Source: Arthrobacter yangruifuii (GTDB taxonomy: Bacteria > Actinomycetota > Actinomycetes > Actinomycetales > Micrococcaceae). Taken from it: a stretch of 64,000 nt of DNA. How positions within the stretch are numbered: position 1 is the stretch's first letter; every line of letters begins with the position of its first letter. Location of the stretch: NCBI RefSeq assembly GCF_009192775.1, contig NZ_VTFX01000001.1, forward strand, positions 496,001 to 560,000, in the 5' to 3' direction. The notes beneath the pieces were generated by a model that was given only the letters and a program-made list of their open reading frames with translations, ran no database searches and was not told the DNA's origin. The position numbers were made by a program, and so were the translations under genes. Below, piece by piece: positions 1 through 39,761 of this stretch.

Positions 1-336
1 TTCACCGAAACCGAGATCGACGCCGCCCTGGCCCGGCACCCGCGCATCGGCGACAGGCCGGAAGGCTCCGGAACGGAAGCCAGCCTCTCCTGCACCGAGC
101 AGGAATCCGTGACCGGGCTGGAACACGTCCAGGACCGGTTGCACGCCGGCAACCGGGCGTATGAAGACCGGTTCGGCCGGGTTTTTCTCATCCGTGCTGC
201 CGGCCGCAGCGCCGAGGACATCCTCACCGTCCTCGAAGAGCGGCTGCAGCACACCGACACCGAGGAGATCCCGGTCATCGCGGCCCAGCTGCGCGACATT
301 GCCATCCTCCGGCTCGAAGGACTGCTGAGCACATGA
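1..336 (+). CDS. uraD: OHCU decarboxylase, C-terminal part (5' truncated by window)
   Basis: Frame 1 is open from the first base, so this is the C-terminal ~111 residues of a gene that begins outside the window. UraD-family enzymes decarboxylate 2-oxo-4-hydroxy-4-carboxy-5-ureidoimidazoline to S-allantoin, the third step of urate breakdown. The fragment carries the family motif HPRIG near its start, NRAYEDRFGRVFLI in the middle and a QLRDIAILRLEGLL tail, all typical. Its stop codon overlaps the start of the next gene in an ATGA, so translation is coupled to uraH. Function is confident; the missing N-terminus cannot be judged. Confidence 0.9.
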   Translation, partial: FTETEIDAALARHPRIGDRPEGSGTEASLSCTEQESVTGLEHVQDRLHAGNRAYEDRFGRVFLIRAAGRSAEDILTVLEERLQHTDTEEIPVIAAQLRDIAILRLEGLLST

Positions 337-674
337 GCGGCAGCCATGTCACCACCCACATCCTGGACACCGCCGCCGGAAGGCCCGCCTCCGGCGTCGC
401 CGTTTCCCTGTGGTCCCTGCACAACGGCGGGCAGACCCGGGTCGGGGAGGGAACCACGGACGGGGACGGACGGATCGGCAGCCTCGGACCGGCGCAGCTG
501 CAGCCGGGCACCTACCGGATCGACTTCGCCACCGGGGACTACTTCGCGGCCGCCGGAACCGAGACCTTTTTCCCCAGCGTCTCCCTGACCTTTCGCCTCA
601 CCGACCCGGGCCAGCACTACCACGTGCCGCTGCTGCTGAGTCCGTTTGCCTACTCCACCTACCGAGGAAGCTGA
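333..674 (+). CDS. uraH: 5-hydroxyisourate hydrolase (HIUase)
   Basis: 113 residues, the usual size of transthyretin-like HIU hydrolases. The N-terminus contains the HVTTHILDTAAGRPA signature and the protein ends in the diagnostic YRGS tetrapeptide, with the conserved His in YHVPLLLSPF. The enzyme hydrolyses 5-hydroxyisourate, the product of urate oxidase, to OHCU, the substrate of the preceding uraD product. Start is the ATG inside the ATGA overlap with uraD. Only three bases separate its stop from urate oxidase. Acts in the cytoplasm; no signal peptide. Confidence 0.95.
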   Translation: MSGSHVTTHILDTAAGRPASGVAVSLWSLHNGGQTRVGEGTTDGDGRIGSLGPAQLQPGTYRIDFATGDYFAAAGTETFFPSVSLTFRLTDPGQHYHVPLLLSPFAYSTYRGS

Positions 675-677
675 GCC

Positions 678-1613
678 ATGACAGAAGCAATGCAGGCCCC
701 GGCGGGGGAAAGCACGGATGCTCCGAGGATCGTGCTCGGCCGCAACCAGTACGGCAAGGCCGAAATCCGGCTGGTAAAGGTCACCCGCGACACCGCCCGG
801 CATTCCCTTGAGGACCTCAGCATCACCTCGCAGCTGCACGGGGACTTCGACGCAGCCCACACCCAGGGGGACAACGCCCATGTGGTGGCCACCGATACGC
901 AGAAGAACACCGTCTACGCTTTCGCGCGCGACGGCGTCGGCTCGCCCGAGGCATTCCTGCTGCGCCTGGAACAGCACTTCACAGCCGGATTCGAGTGGGT
1001 CACCGGCGGGCGCTGGGCCGCGGAACAGTACTTCTGGAACCGGATCAGCGGCCACGACCACGCCTTCGCCAAGGACAAATCGGAAATCCGCACCGCCCTC
1101 CTGCTGTCCGTGGGCGGCGGGCGGCAGCTGGTCTCCGGAATCAGCGGCCTGACGGTGCTGAAAAGCACCGGCTCCGAGTTCCACGGCTTCCCGCGGGACC
1201 GGTACACCACCCTGGCCGAAACCACGGACCGGATCCTGGCCACCGATGTCACGGCCAAATGGCGCTACGCGCCGGAGACGGATCTGTCCGCCCTGGATTT
1301 CAATGCCCTCTACGCCTCCGCGCGGACCCTGCTCCTGGATGCCTTCGCCGGCACGCACTCCCTGGCACTGCAGCAGAGCATGTATGAAATGGGCAAAGCC
1401 GTGATTGCCGCCCATCCGGAGATCGTGGAGGTGCGCCTTTCCCTGCCGAACAACCATCACTTCCTGGTGGACCTGGCGCCGTTTGGCCTGGACAACCCCA
1501 ACGAGGTGTTCTTCGCCGCGGACCGGCCCTACGGACTGATCGAGGCATCCGTGCTGCGGGAGGGCACGGACCCCGAGGCGCACGTCTGGAACACCGTGGG
1601 CGGATTCTGCTGA
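678..1613 (+). CDS. uox: Urate oxidase (factor-independent uricase)
   Basis: 311 residues, normal for cofactor-free uricases (two T-fold domains). Visible catalytic features are the Lys in NQYGKAEIRLVKV, the Thr in VVATDTQKNTVYAF and the His in PNNHHFLVDL, matching the Thr/Lys/His set of the family. The enzyme oxidises urate to 5-hydroxyisourate with O2, releasing H2O2. It sits between uraH and the DUF6986 gene; its TGA overlaps the next ATG as TGATG, so the genes form one translationally coupled operon. The C-terminus ends GGFC, not an SKL-type peroxisomal signal, as expected for a bacterium. Confidence 0.96.
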   Translation: MTEAMQAPAGESTDAPRIVLGRNQYGKAEIRLVKVTRDTARHSLEDLSITSQLHGDFDAAHTQGDNAHVVATDTQKNTVYAFARDGVGSPEAFLLRLEQHFTAGFEWVTGGRWAAEQYFWNRISGHDHAFAKDKSEIRTALLLSVGGGRQLVSGISGLTVLKSTGSEFHGFPRDRYTTLAETTDRILATDVTAKWRYAPETDLSALDFNALYASARTLLLDAFAGTHSLALQQSMYEMGKAVIAAHPEIVEVRLSLPNNHHFLVDLAPFGLDNPNEVFFAADRPYGLIEASVLREGTDPEAHVWNTVGGFC

Positions 1614-2932
1614 TGTCCCCTCGGTCCGGTTCCCACCTGCCCCACCCCGTCCTCGGCGCCGACCATCTGGCCCGGCTGGAGGCCATCCTGACGGATACCG
1701 ACCGGCTGCTCGCCGCCGCCTATCCGGGCGACGGCGGCTCCCGCCAGCCCGTCCACACCGTCTACATTCCGGCCGACCGTTGTCTGCCCGCGTTGCCCGG
1801 AACCTGGGGCGAGGACGCGCTGGCCGCCCTGGCGGCGTACGGATCCCTGGCCGAGCTGGCGGACCGGCTGGGCCTCGACCCGGACGTGGCCGGCGCCGTC
1901 GTGCCGCTGGTGGAGGCGAAGCTGCGCACCGAACCCATCGAGGACCTGCGCCTGGACTTCGAGGACGGCTACGGCATCCGGCCCGACGCCGAGGAAGACG
2001 GCCACGCCCGGCAGGCCGCCGCCGCGGTGGCCGGGGCCGTGGCCGCCGGCACCGCCCCGCCGTTTGTCGGTATCCGGTTCAAGTCCTTCGAAGCCGCCAC
2101 CCGGGACCGCGGCGTCCGCACCCTGGACCTGTTCCTCGCCGGGCTGCTTGCAGCCGGGGACCTGCCGGACGGGCTGGTGCTGACCCTGCCCAAGGTGTCC
2201 ACCGTGGAACAGGTCGAGGCCATGGTCTACGTCTGTGAACTGCTCGAGGACGCCCACGGCCTGCCCGAGGGGCGGCTGCGGTTCGAGGTGCAGGTGGAAA
2301 CCCCGCAGCTGGTCCTGGCCGCCAACGGCACGGTGCCCGCGGCGCAGCTGATCCACCGGGCCAAGGGCCGGGTCTCGGCGCTGCACTACGGAACCTATGA
2401 CTACAGCGATGCTGTGCAGGTGGCCGCCCCGTACCAGTCCATGGACCACCCCGCCGCGGACTACGCCAAAGCCGTGATGCAGGTGGCCGCCGCCGGCACC
2501 GGCGTCCGGCTTTCGGACGGTTCCACCAACATCCTGCCGCTGGGCACACCGGAGGAAATCCGCTCCGCCTGGCAGCTGCATGCCCGGCTGGTGCGCCGCT
2601 CCCTGGAACGCGGTTTCTACCAGGGCTGGGACCTGCATCCGGCGCAGCTGCCCACCCGCTTCCTGGCCACGTACGCCTTTTACCGGGAAGGGTTCGACGC
2701 CGCCGCATCGCGCCTGCGCAATTACGCGCAGCACCGTGCGGGCAGCGTGCTCGACGAACCGGCCACGGCCCGCGCGCTGGCCCGCTTTGTGCGCCGCGGC
2801 CTGCTCTGCGGTGCACTGACCGGTGCAGAGATTGAACACGGCACCGGGCTCAGCGGCGTCGAGCTTGCAGCCCTCGCCCATCCAGGAGCTCATTCCTCCG
2901 CCTCCGCCGCCGACGAAAAGGTCCAACAGTGA
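1613..2932 (+). CDS. DUF6986 family protein, HpcH/CitE-like aldolase fold
   Basis: 439 residues. The sequence looks like the HpcH/HpaI aldolase-citrate lyase-malate synthase superfamily: LRLDFEDGYGIRPD resembles the acidic metal-site motif, followed by GIRFKSFE, a strand-like LVLTLPKVST, RFEVQVETPQ and LHYGTYDYSD. The start is the ATG in the TGATG junction with uox, and the end overlaps the allE GTG start (GTGA). Because it lies inside a tightly coupled ureide operon it probably acts on a pathway product such as glyoxylate, but that is inference; the exact reaction is not known to me. An alternative is a malate-synthase-like or lyase side activity. Confidence 0.75.
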   Translation: MSPRSGSHLPHPVLGADHLARLEAILTDTDRLLAAAYPGDGGSRQPVHTVYIPADRCLPALPGTWGEDALAALAAYGSLAELADRLGLDPDVAGAVVPLVEAKLRTEPIEDLRLDFEDGYGIRPDAEEDGHARQAAAAVAGAVAAGTAPPFVGIRFKSFEAATRDRGVRTLDLFLAGLLAAGDLPDGLVLTLPKVSTVEQVEAMVYVCELLEDAHGLPEGRLRFEVQVETPQLVLAANGTVPAAQLIHRAKGRVSALHYGTYDYSDAVQVAAPYQSMDHPAADYAKAVMQVAAAGTGVRLSDGSTNILPLGTPEEIRSAWQLHARLVRRSLERGFYQGWDLHPAQLPTRFLATYAFYREGFDAAASRLRNYAQHRAGSVLDEPATARALARFVRRGLLCGALTGAEIEHGTGLSGVELAALAHPGAHSSASAADEKVQQ

Positions 2933-3753
2933 ATAACCCCCGCTACTACGCCCCCGAGGGCGGCCTGCCTGCCCAGACCGATCTGCTCACCGGCCGGGCT
3001 GTGGTCACCGAGGCCTACACCGTGATTCCCCGCGGCGTACTGCGGGACATCGTGGTCAGCGTGCTGCCCGAATGGACCGAGACCCGCACCTGGATCCTCA
3101 ACCGGCCCGTGGCCGGCGGCGCCGTCACTTTTGCGCAGTACCTGATGGAGGTGGCACCGGGCGGCGGTTCCCGGGCGCCCGAACCGGAACTTGAAGTGCA
3201 GTCCTTCATTTTCGTCCTCGAGGGCACCCTGACCGTGCGCCGGCTGGGACGGGACCATGAACTGACCCCGGGCGGCTTCGCCTACCTGCCGCCGGAAACG
3301 CTGTGGGGAGCATTCAACGAGGGGCAGGAAACGGTGAAATTCGCCTGGATCCGCAAGGCCTACCAGCCGCTCGTGGGACATACTCCGGCCCCGGTGTTCG
3401 GCAACGAGGCCGACATCACGCCGACGCCGATGCCCGGCACCGACAACAAATGGCGCACCACCCGGATGATCCCCGTGGACGACGTCGCCTATGACATGCA
3501 CGTCAACGTAGTGACCTTCGAACCCGGCGCCGTGATTCCCTTCGCCGAAACCCACGTGATGGAGCACGGGCTGTATGTGCTCGAGGGCAAGGCCGTGTAC
3601 CGGCTCAACCAGGACTGGGTGGAAGTGGAGGAGGGGGATTACCTGTCCCTGCGCGCCTTTTGCCCGCAGGCCTGTTACGCCGGCGGACCCTCGAACTTCC
3701 GCTACCTGCTGTACAAGGACGTGAACCGCCAGGTCCGGCTGGGAAGCCGGTGA
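2929..3753 (+). CDS. allE: (S)-ureidoglycine aminohydrolase, bicupin
   Basis: 274 residues with two cupin domains. Converts S-ureidoglycine to S-ureidoglycolate and ammonia. The second cupin holds the manganese ligands E207, H209 and H213 (in [16 protein letters not shown]) and Q247 (in CPQACY); the spacing 2-4-34 is the same as in the plant enzyme. The GTG start overlaps the previous TGA, and its own TGA overlaps the next ATG. This step presupposes an allantoate amidohydrolase, which is not in the window. The first cupin ([15 protein letters not shown]) lacks an obvious metal site, as in the family. Confidence 0.93.
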
Positions 3754-5918
3754 TGGTTCCCGAGGGCGGCGCCCGCGCCGGATACTCCGTGAACTGCTCC
3801 ATGCTGTTCACCGAACTCCCGCTGCTGGAACGTCCCGCCGCCGCCCGGGCCGCCGGCTTCGACACGGTGGAGTTCTGGTGGCCGTTTGCCGAACCGGTGC
3901 CTCCGGCGGCAGAGGTGGCGGACTTTGAGACGGCCATCCGCGACGCCGGCGTGCGCCTGGGTGCCCTGAACTTCGCCGCTGGAACCATGCCTGAGGGCGA
4001 ACGCGGCCTGCTGTCCCTACCGGACCGCGGTGCCGACTTCCGTGCCAATGTGCAGGTGGTTGCCGGCATCGGGCAGCGGCTGGGCTGCCGGCTCTTCAAC
4101 GCGCTGTACGGCAACCGGTCCGCGTCCTACCGCCCGGAGGAACAGGACAAGGAAGCACAGCGGAACCTGCTGGAGGCGGCCCGTGCCGTCGCACCCTTCG
4201 GCGGGACCATCCTCCTGGAACCGCTCAGCGGTGCTCCGGATTATCCGCTGCGCACCGCTGCGGACGTGTTCGCCGTCCTGGACCGGGTGCACCGGGCCGG
4301 GGCGCCCAATGCGGCACTGCTGGCCGATTTCTACCATCTGGCGGTGAACGGCGACGACGTCGGGGCGCTGGCGGCGGCCGATGCCGGCCGGTTCGGGCAC
4401 GTCCAGATTGCCGATGCTCCCGGCCGCGGAGCGCCCGGCACCGGAACCCTTCCCCTGGCGGACTGGGTCCGGGTGATCCGCAGCGGCGGATACCGCGGGG
4501 AGGTGGCGCTGGAATACTTCGCGCCCGCCGAGTCCGCTTTCGACTGGCTGGACTCGCCGGGGCCGGATTCCTCAGCAGCCCGCCCTGCGGAGCGCTACGA
4601 CCTGGTGATCCGCAGCAACGCCGTCCTCACTCCCGAAGGAATCACCCCCGCTGAGGTGGGAGTGCGGGACGGGGTGATTGCCGCCGTCGTCCCGCTGGGC
4701 ACCGGGCTGGCGGGGGAGCGGCTGCTGGAACTGGCCGGGGATGAAACCTTGCTGCCCGGGCTGGTGGACACCCATGTACACGTGAATGAGCCGGGCCGCA
4801 CCGAGTGGGAGGGGTTCGCTTCGGCCACCCGGGCGGCGGCGGCGGGCGGCGTGACCACGCTGATCGACATGCCGCTGAACAGCATCCCGCCCACCGTGAC
4901 CGTGGACGCGCTGGAAGCGAAGCAGACGTGCGCAGCCCCGCAGGCCGCCGTCGACGTCGGGTTCTGGGGCGGAGCCGTTCCCGGAAACGAAGCGGATCTG
5001 CGTCCCCTGCATGACGCCGGCGTCTTCGGCTTCAAATGCTTCCTGGTCCACTCCGGCGTCGACGAATTCCCGTACCTGGAACCGGCGGAAATGGAAACCG
5101 TCCTCGCCGAACTGAAGACCTTCGACGCCCTGCTGCTGGTCCACGCCGAGGATCCCGCCGCCATCCTGCCCGCTCCCGCCGGCCCGCAGTACGCCGGCTT
5201 CCTGGCCTCCCGGCCGCCGTCCGCGGAAAACAGCGCCGTCGGACAGGTCATCGAGGCCGGGCGGCGGACCGGGGCACGGGCGCACATCCTGCACCTGTCC
5301 TCCGCCGAAGCGCTGCCCCTGATCCGTGCGGCAAAGGACGACGGCGTCCGCCTCACCGCCGAGACCTGCCCGCACTACCTGACGCTGACGGCAGAGGAGA
5401 TTCCCGACGGCGCCACCGCGTTCAAGTGCTGCCCGCCCATCCGCGGGGACGCCAACCGGGAACAGCTCTGGGCCGGTCTGGCGGACGGGACCATCGACTG
5501 CATCGTGTCTGACCATTCGCCCAGCACCCTGGACCTGAAGGACCTCGGGCGAGGGGACTTCAGTGTTGCCTGGGGCGGGGTGTCCTCGCTGCAGCTGGGC
5601 CTGCCGCTGATCTGGACCGAGGCCCGTGCCCGGGGAATTCCGCTGGAGCGGGCGCTGCACTGGATGTCCGCGGCGCCGGCGGAACTGGCCGGCCTGGACC
5701 GGAAGGGCGGCATTGTGCCGGGTAAGGATGCCGACTTCGCGGTCTTCGCGGCCGGAGACACCTTCACCGTGGATCCGGCCGCCCTGCAGCATCGCAACCC
5801 GGTCACGCCGTACGCGGGGAAGCATCTCACCGGCGTCGTGCGTCGGACGCTGCTGGCCGGAGTCGACGTCGATCCGGGGGCACCTGCAGGCCGGCTGCTG
5901 CGCCGGGGCGAGGCGTAG
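3753..5918 (+). CDS. allB: Fusion: hydroxypyruvate isomerase-like domain + allantoinase
   Basis: 721 residues made of two enzymes in one frame with no internal stop. Residues ~11-268 match hydroxypyruvate isomerase (Hyi, TIM barrel): [14 protein letters not shown] with E156, [20 protein letters not shown] and VALEYF with E254; the two Glu are 98 residues apart as in E. coli Hyi (E142/E240). After a ~12-residue linker, residues ~281-721 are allantoinase: [15 protein letters not shown] (H341, H343), GFKCFL (K428, carboxylated Lys), H464, H514 and D587. Allantoinase opens S-allantoin to allantoate. The start is the ATG in a TGATG overlap with allE; an in-frame ATG at 3660 inside allE is rejected. 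The two activities are normally encoded by separate genes. Confidence 0.92.
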
Positions 5919-6001: not shown

Positions 6002-6847
6002 ATGGCACCCTTCCGAAACAGCCGCGCCGCTGCCCTTCCCGCAAAACTCTCCCGCTCCTGGCTGCTGGCATCCGCCGCAGATGAAGCGAATTTTGCACCG
6101 GCGCTGGCGTCCGAGGCCGATTCGGTGGTCTTCGACATGGAGGACGCCGTCCCCGCCGGAGGCAAGGCCGAAGCCCGCGAACGGGTGGTTGAGGCACTGT
6201 CCACCGGCATGACCGCGTGGGTACGCGTCAACGGCATCGAAACCGATTACTGGGCTGACGATCTCGCGGCCCTCTCGAAGGCACCGGGCCTGCGCGGCGT
6301 GATGCTCGCGATGACCGAAAAGCCCGAGCAGGTCACGCACACCGCCATGCGCCTGCAGGCCGGCACCCCGGTCCTGGCCCTGGTGGAATCGGCCCTCGGC
6401 ATCGAGAACGCCACCGCCATCGCCAGCGCACCGGGCACGTTCCGCCTCGCATTCGGCGTCGGCGATTTCCGCCGCGATACCGGTGCCTCGGATGATCCGA
6501 TGGCCCTGGCCTACGCCCGCTCCAAGCTCGTGGTCGCCTCCCGCGTGGGCCAGCTGCCCGGCCCGATCGACGGACCCACCGTGGGTGCGCTGGGCGAGAA
6601 GCTGCTGGACGCCTGCAAGGTCACCCAGAGCATGGGCATGACCGGCAAGCTGTGCCTGATGCCCGAGGCCACGGACTTCATCAACCAGGGACTCTCACCC
6701 AGCGATTCGGAAATCACCTGGGCCCACGAGCTGCTGGAGGCGCACGCGGCCGGTGCCGTGGTGGGCGACGGATCCTACCTGCCGCGCCTGGCCCGTGCCC
6801 AGAAGATCTCCTCGCTGGCGGACTCCTACGGACTCTGGAACGCCTAG
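6002..6847 (+). CDS. HpcH/HpaI aldolase/citrate lyase (CitE-like) family protein
   Basis: 281 residues, typical of stand-alone CitE-like proteins. Motifs in order: RSWLLASAADEANFAPAL, VVFDMEDAVPAG (acidic, metal/CoA site region), WVRVNG, LALVESALGIENA, FGVGDFRRDTG and GKLCLMPEA. Such proteins cleave or form beta-hydroxyacyl-CoA or related C-C bonds, often with glyoxylate or pyruvate as the carbonyl product. No citF/citD partners are present, so it is not a citrate lyase complex. It follows the ureide operon after 83 bases and may share the theme of glyoxylate use, but it probably has its own leaderless promoter. Substrate unknown. Confidence 0.8.
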   Translation: MAPFRNSRAAALPAKLSRSWLLASAADEANFAPALASEADSVVFDMEDAVPAGGKAEARERVVEALSTGMTAWVRVNGIETDYWADDLAALSKAPGLRGVMLAMTEKPEQVTHTAMRLQAGTPVLALVESALGIENATAIASAPGTFRLAFGVGDFRRDTGASDDPMALAYARSKLVVASRVGQLPGPIDGPTVGALGEKLLDACKVTQSMGMTGKLCLMPEATDFINQGLSPSDSEITWAHELLEAHAAGAVVGDGSYLPRLARAQKISSLADSYGLWNA

Positions 6848-38549: not shown

Positions 38550-39761
38550 TCACGCGCTTTCGGCGAGTCCAAAACTCCGCTCGGTGCCCGGCAGGAACGC
38601 CAGCCCGCAGCAGGCCCGAGCAGCGGCATCCTCAATGAGCAGCTCCGCATTGGCGGTGAGTTCCGCCAGGGTTGCCGGTCCGCGGGCAATGGACACCGCA
38701 ACCGTGATCCCGGCCTCCATGCTCTGCGCGGCGCTGAGCTGGACGGTTCCCGCGACCACGACGAGCGGACTGGCCGACGGCGCAAGACGCCGGACCGCAT
38801 CCACTACCTTGCCGCCCAGCGACTGGGTGTCCAGGCAGCCCTCGCCCGTCAGCACGACGTCGGCATGGGCCAGGGCCGCCCGCAGGCCAACCGCATCACT
38901 CACCAGTTCCGCGCCCGGGACCGTTTCCGCTCCGAGCAGCGCGACCAGGGACAGCGGCAGGCCGCCGGCGGCACCGAAACCGGGGGCCGTGAGGTAGGTT
39001 CCGGGACGGCCGTTTGACTCCACAGGAGGACGGAAATCCGTGAGGACCCGGGCCAGGTTCGCCAGGCCGGCGTCCAGCAGCTTCACATCTTCCGGGCCGG
39101 CCCCCTTTTGCGGGCCGAAGACGGCGGCGGCTCCCTGTTCCCCGCAGAGCGGGTTGGCAACGTCCACGGCGACCCGCCATTTTACGGCTGCCGCGCGCGG
39201 GTGCAGCCCGGAAACGTCAACCGTGTGGATAGCGCCCAGTCCGGCGCCGCCCGGAGCCACCGGGTTGCCGGTGGCATCAAGGAAACGCACCCCGAGGGCG
39301 GAAAGCAGCCCGGTGCCGCCATCGGTGCTGGCCGATCCGCCGATGCACAGCAGGATCTCCTCGACGCCCTCATCCAGGAGGTGCCCGGCAATGGTGCCCA
39401 CTCCGTAGCTGTCCGCGCGCAGCGGCTGCAGGGGTACATCTAATACGTCGGGAAGCCCGTTCCCCTCGGCCGCTTCGATGATGCCGGTAAGTCCGTCGGC
39501 GGACACCCCGTAACGGGCCGTTTTCGGGCGGCCCAGCGCGTCGGTGGCGGCGGTGAACAACGGCGGGCAACGCCAGGCAGCCAGCAGCGCATCGAGGGTC
39601 CCCTCGCCGCCGTCAGCCATCGGAATTTCGATAATCCGGGCGGCCGCGCCGAAAGCAAAGCGTGCCCCGCGGGCCATCGCAGCGGCCGCGCCGGCGGCGG
39701 AGATACTGCCTTTAAACGAATCAGGCGCAACAACAATCAGGGGCGGGCGGGAATTTGGCAC
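38550..39761 (-). CDS. glxK: Glycerate kinase
   Basis: 403 residues, GTG start with GAAAGG before it. Type-1 glycerate kinase features: IVVAPDSFKGSISAAGAAAAMARGA, IPMADGGEGTLDAL, LCIGGSASTDGGTGLLSALGVRFLD and AGGLPLSLVALLG, DVVLTGEGCLDTQSLGGKVV. Phosphorylates glycerate to 2- or 3-phosphoglycerate, the last step of the glyoxylate-to-glycerate route. First gene of the operon with the GntP permease; a palindrome at 39796-39814 lies upstream. Could also serve glucarate/galactarate breakdown. Confidence 0.92.
   Translation of the reverse strand: MPNSRPPLIVVAPDSFKGSISAAGAAAAMARGARFAFGAAARIIEIPMADGGEGTLDALLAAWRCPPLFTAATDALGRPKTARYGVSADGLTGIIEAAEGNGLPDVLDVPLQPLRADSYGVGTIAGHLLDEGVEEILLCIGGSASTDGGTGLLSALGVRFLDATGNPVAPGGAGLGAIHTVDVSGLHPRAAAVKWRVAVDVANPLCGEQGAAAVFGPQKGAGPEDVKLLDAGLANLARVLTDFRPPVESNGRPGTYLTAPGFGAAGGLPLSLVALLGAETVPGAELVSDAVGLRAALAHADVVLTGEGCLDTQSLGGKVVDAVRRLAPSASPLVVVAGTVQLSAAQSMEAGITVAVSIARGPATLAELTANAELLIEDAAARACCGLAFLPGTERSFGLAESA

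Follow-up and report, generated by a model that had tools for sequence, protein, structure and literature searches.

Organisation of the ureide cluster

The window, which is the whole stretch of 64,000 nucleotides that was analysed, opens inside a ureide gene cluster. In this cluster uraD, which enters from upstream, is followed by uraH, urate oxidase, a DUF6986 gene, allE, a fused hyi-allB gene and a CitE-like gene, while divergent xanthine dehydrogenase-type and xdhC genes are found upstream of it. The features of the locus are the following:

1..336, + strand: uraD, OHCU decarboxylase, C-terminal part; the gene starts upstream of the window (L116:11407-12333)
333..674, + strand: uraH, hydroxyisourate hydrolase (TIGR02962)
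678..1613, + strand: urate oxidase (TIGR03383)
1613..2932, + strand: DUF6986 (PF22484) protein, weakly HpcH/HpaI aldolase-like (Pfam), in the same gene run, upstream of allE
2929..3753, + strand: allE, (S)-ureidoglycine aminohydrolase (NCBIfam), whose stop overlaps the fusion start
3753..5918, + strand: fused hyi-allB ORF, 721 aa plus stop, uninterrupted between the ATG at 3753 and a stop whose last base is 5918
3783..4550, + strand: Hyi-family TIM barrel domain, residues 11-266, with E156, D192, H195, Q218 and E254 conserved
4551..4592, + strand: linker, about residues 267-280, predicted to be disordered and of varying length among genomes
4593..5915, + strand: AllB allantoinase domain, residues 281-721 (Pfam, NCBIfam, motifs and fold search)
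6002..6847, + strand: CitE-like HpcH/HpaI protein (Pfam), downstream of the fusion

Some of the neighbouring genes present features of their own. Urate oxidase and DUF6986 are adjacent in the window (at 1613) and in L037 (genome G018), L120, L121, L122 and L126; in L036 a xanthine/uracil-family permease is located between them (L036:2342-3853, Pfam), and a gap of about 1.5 kb at this position is also present in L039, L040, L117, L125, L127, L133, L134 and L135. DUF6986 recurs beside allE in many of the clusters fetched, and no paper on it was found in the literature searched. The allE gene (2929-3753) passes the model of the bifunctional allantoicase/(S)-ureidoglycine aminohydrolase (NF040771, 438.2 bits versus 350), and no AllC over the cut-off is found in the source genome, in which an AllC-like match reaches 205.7 bits versus 597.75; judged from sequence, AllE may also perform the allantoate step. 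The CitE-like gene (6002-6847) shows 96-99% identity among those of the fetched genus loci in which it occurs, with its neighbours there at about 66-98%, and its conservation is unusually strong.

Architecture of the fusion protein

The initial annotation described a single frame of 721 residues with both domains complete, a description that holds: the frame is open throughout, both halves are matched by NCBIfam models, and Pfam places AP_endonuc_2 at residues 29-265 and Amidohydro_1 at 332-674. The AllB half matches the allantoinase model TIGR03178 over residues 283-707 with 544.6 bits, which passes the cut-off of 357.85. The metal-site motifs are all present, comprising H341/H343, K428, H464, H514 and D587, the residues that serve as metal ligands in this family; the claim of a complete allantoinase with all its ligands is thus borne out at the level of motifs. 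A fold search with the predicted model returned allantoinases as the best matches, and the best 50 listed are all of the amidohydrolase kind. This AlphaFold model of the 721-residue protein, built from a 26-row alignment, is the best of five (mean pLDDT 78.0, pTM 0.58; the five span mean pLDDT values from 65.0 to 78.0). The Hyi domain is modelled confidently, mostly with pLDDT above 80, the linker (residues 266-279) falls below 50, and the AllB half is modelled as a domain with several short loops below 50.

The assignment of the N-terminal half relies on conserved residues, as its match to the hydroxypyruvate isomerase model TIGR03234 (residues 11-266, 210.0 bits) does not pass the cut-off of 353.45. 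Other actinobacterial Hyi proteins are also below this cut-off, namely five among nine proteins scanned (214.4-241.5 bits), of which two are gcl-linked (235.0 and 240.2 bits). In the Hyi alignment E156, Q218 and E254 are invariant (56 of 56 grouped rows), at least 97% of 57 rows have D192 and H195, and counterparts of all five residues are found in 1k77 when it is aligned together with 3ngf. The placement of E156 and E254 noticed at the outset is therefore confirmed and extended to D192, H195 and Q218; these conserved residues presumably include the catalytic Glu pair and the metal site of the family. In addition, 18 alignment columns set the seven fused Hyi domains, described below, apart from gcl-linked Hyi.

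Start sites and selection

The start of the fusion overlaps the stop of allE as TGATG. Of the translational coupling to allE that had been proposed, the start/stop overlap stands, and it is from this overlap that we infer coupling itself. By the rule of the script used, a ribosome site precedes the fusion's own ATG in five of the seven fused genes (all except those of G000 and G020). Near the junction none of the seven contains an in-frame ATG, and the only GTG codons preceded by a ribosome-site-like stretch are two, in G000 and G021, at differing positions. An internal AllB start is therefore rejected as a conserved feature, the candidates being weak, confined to two genomes and differently placed. 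In G000 a weak GGAG precedes an in-frame GTG at residue 285 by 12 bases, and a separate AllB product is possible in this strain; the unfused allB of G026 has its own ATG with GGAGG. Regarding selection, the seven fused genes, compared in 21 pairs, give a median dN/dS of 0.163 (0-0.303) for the Hyi half and of 0.143 (0.065-0.188) for the AllB half, and purifying selection acts on both.

Distribution and history of the fusion

The same arrangement, the recurrence of which in other genomes had been left to be sought, occurs full length and in frame in seven of 29 genus genomes, the source genome included. The gaps between the Hyi and AllB matches measure 30 nt in G000, 21 in G009, 9 in G010, 36 in G018, 69 in G020, 54 in G021 and 84 in G022; the length differences are all multiples of three, no linker contains a stop, and the linkers are rich in Ala/Glu/Pro/Ser. 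An assembly artefact, that is, a stop lost or a frameshift at the junction, was rejected, since seven genomes with unlike linkers all keep the frame, which reduces its probability to practically nil. The fusion is a real single two-domain frame that is selected and lineage-specific. Relatives carry hyi and allB side by side in the same orientation, downstream of allE; the two are separate neighbours in G001, G004, G012, G013, G015 and G026.

The searches covered the gene order hyi-allB. Among the 80 loci listed there are three in-frame fusions, L036 (Arthrobacter sp. zg-Y844), L037 (zg-Y769) and L040 (zg-Y238), which, according to matching scores and positions, are the same genomes as G020, G018 and G009, respectively. 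Four further loci that span both genes are not fusions: L038 has a stop between them, and L041, L044 (A. citreus DSM 20133) and L055 are out of frame. No fusion outside Arthrobacter is present among the matches listed from 295 genomes of the family (at most three candidates scored per genome; the sample contained six of the seven fusion genomes), nor outside the genus among those listed from 394 genomes of the class (two candidates scored per genome). Among 1370 matching plasmid records, none contains a single locus that accounts for 80% of the query.

Two trees bear on the origin of the fusion. In the Hyi tree, which holds 57 of 92 Hyi rows (gcl-linked rows thinned from 61 to 39; 13 presumed second copies skipped, with L041 taken as G015 because of equal match values; the split copy of G011 and G270 left out), the seven fused domains form one clade with an SH-aLRT of 93, which adjoins G016, where hyi is retained with no close allB match, and the unfused G026. 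In the local tree of six concatenated genes from 15 of the 29 genomes, the seven fused genomes form a clade with G027 and G028 (support 100/100), and these two, in which allB directly follows allE with no Hyi, sit inside the fused group. The opening codons of their allB agree with those, GGTGATGCACGACG, of six fused genes (all but that of G000), which would fit an in-frame excision of the Hyi half. This reading is suggestive only, because the AU test does not reject a tree in which the seven fused genomes are grouped alone (p 0.346). In the most likely history, hyi reached the side of allB without gcl, a single fusion event followed in this subclade, and G027 and G028 may later have lost the Hyi half again; fusion followed by loss and loss before fusion are both compatible with the local tree.

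Gcl, GlxR and the fate of glyoxylate

Within the genus, only three of 29 genomes, G005, G012 and G013, have Gcl (TIGR01504) and GlxR (TIGR01505) over the cut-offs, and they carry gcl and glxR in allE-hyi-glxR-gcl runs; a second hyi is located beside allB in G012 and G013, not in G005. In G012 and G005 these runs belong to a second ureide cluster of the order DUF6986-allE-hyi-glxR-gcl (L130 and L131, respectively), the first cluster being DUF6986-allE-hyi-allB in G012 and DUF6986-allE-allB in G005 (L129, L132), and in G013 the run (L144) exists besides the hyi-allB pair. Hyi without Gcl is found in 28 genomes of the family sample, 12 of them from Arthrobacter. An orphan hyi in a genome without Gcl over the cut-off is seen in G011, where it is frame-shifted and split over two frames, and in G006, where it adjoins an IclR-type regulator; L123:5514-6280 and L124:5802-6569 hold the G011 and G006 copies.

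The source genome contains four TIGR01504 matches, the best with 384.9 bits versus a cut-off of 711.2, and a divergent TPP enzyme might supply Gcl activity there. It also encodes two malate synthase A proteins that score over the cut-off, and these represent another possible exit for glyoxylate. In G270, urate oxidase, malate synthase A, DUF6986, allE, hyi and allB stand in a row, and no Gcl is found at the threshold used. Malate synthase A occupies the same place in L038 and L055, where no gcl is nearby (the locus being what was covered) and whose hyi genes belong to a second Hyi lineage; together with the genus, this places hyi-allB without nearby gcl in at least two Hyi lineages. A glycerate kinase gene (TIGR00045, 343.4 bits) is located at about 38607-39737 on the minus strand, far from the fusion.

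Function of the Hyi half

The reading that we favour, with a probability of about 0.7, is that the Hyi half is a live isomerase acting outside the Gcl-GlxR route, joined to allantoinase by a flexible linker in a fusion that most likely arose once. The protein would thus consist of an N-terminal Hyi domain of the metal-dependent isomerase family, the linker and a C-terminal allantoinase of the amidohydrolase type. The AllB half would open allantoin to allantoate, as usual, and the Hyi half would isomerise a small 2-oxo acid, either hydroxypyruvate/tartronate semialdehyde or a closely related compound, perhaps as a scavenger, with glyoxylate passing mainly to malate synthase. The fusion would mainly fix co-expression, with no intermediate channelled; a fixed stoichiometry of the two activities, as suggested in the initial annotation, is possible.

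That annotation also held that the fusion connects the ureide pathway with the glyoxylate/glycerate branch, a link that would require Gcl and GlxR, and that it might channel intermediates. The general association of Hyi with Gcl is in line with this, since Gcl is found in 140 and Hyi in 168 of the 295 genomes of the family sample and all 140 Gcl genomes also have Hyi (the Fisher tests on this co-occurrence ignore genome relatedness and are descriptive only), as is the glycerate kinase found over the cut-off in all 29 genus genomes, with two in the source genome. However, the seven fusion genomes all lack a Gcl or GlxR match over the cut-off, so that a glycerate branch to which the fusion could connect is not evident. 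Moreover, the product of AllB is allantoate, which is several enzymatic steps away from hydroxypyruvate or tartronate semialdehyde. Channelling is thus chemically unlikely, the two halves sharing no intermediate in the textbook pathway, and the proposal as a whole is highly improbable.

A different view would see in the Hyi half a non-catalytic remnant of a hyi-glxR-gcl operon that has disappeared, retained because it provides allB with its start or helps AllB to fold. G270, with its allE-hyi-allB order and no Gcl at the threshold used, agrees with such a relic, as do the frame-shifted orphan of G011 and the dispensability of the domain in this group, evident from G027 and G028, which have allB without it. 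It is nevertheless rather unlikely, because the Hyi half evolves under purifying selection, its catalytic residues are conserved in all seven fusions, and unfused hyi persists without Gcl over the cut-off in G001, G004, G006, G015, G016 and G026. It is likewise unlikely that the Hyi of genomes lacking Gcl has shifted to another step near ureide breakdown, for example one acting on glyoxylate or a ureidoglycolate-derived compound. The presence of hyi beside allB without nearby gcl in Arthrobacter, in the second lineage and in G270 would fit such a shift, as would the 18 distinguishing columns and the fact that the available part of PMC12694930 leaves the reaction of Hyi unsettled; yet gcl-linked Hyi have the same catalytic residues, no missing pathway step has been shown to need Hyi, and the neighbouring pathway genes are kept in relatives without it. 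Beyond the live isomerase that we prefer, a speculative extension is that more than one actinobacterial lineage reveals a Gcl-independent role of Hyi in ureide/glyoxylate handling that fusion has fixed here, in which case the textbook family name would cover only part of the function.

Comparison with known systems

At the level of titles and abstract openings, no Hyi-AllB fusion was found among the papers listed, and the available part of PMC4016543 does not mention one. Compared with AllB (TIGR03178; PDB 3hm7, 3e74 and 8hfd), the C-terminal half is likewise full length and over the cut-off, with the metal-site motifs and the same fold, the difference being the additional Hyi domain and linker, about 280 residues, at the N-terminus. 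With Hyi (TIGR03234; E. coli YgbM, PDB 1k77) the N-terminal half shares the domain family and the five matched residues, but it scores below the cut-off, is fused to AllB and is encoded in a genome with no Gcl or GlxR over the cut-off.

In the Hyi-GlxR-Gcl allantoin/glyoxylate cluster of Pseudomonas aeruginosa, according to the available part of PMC12694930, mutants in hyi do not grow when allantoin is the only carbon source, and Hyi speeds the Gcl reaction, by which reaction being left undecided. Hyi is tied to purine breakdown in both systems, whereas Gcl was not found in the fusion genomes, and it is this retention of Hyi without a recognisable Gcl, while its physiological reaction is described there as unsettled, that makes the fusion of interest. 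An intact Hyi under selection without recognisable Gcl and GlxR, which could be co-purified with allantoinase, would offer a direct test of Hyi alone. Two-domain proteins of purine breakdown may also unite adjacent reactions: OHCU decarboxylase and HIU hydrolase catalyse neighbouring pathway steps, whereas the activities of Hyi and AllB are not successive. In Arabidopsis those two enzymes form a two-domain protein (PMC2834698, in the part available), which, like the fusion described here, joins two purine-breakdown domains in one polypeptide.
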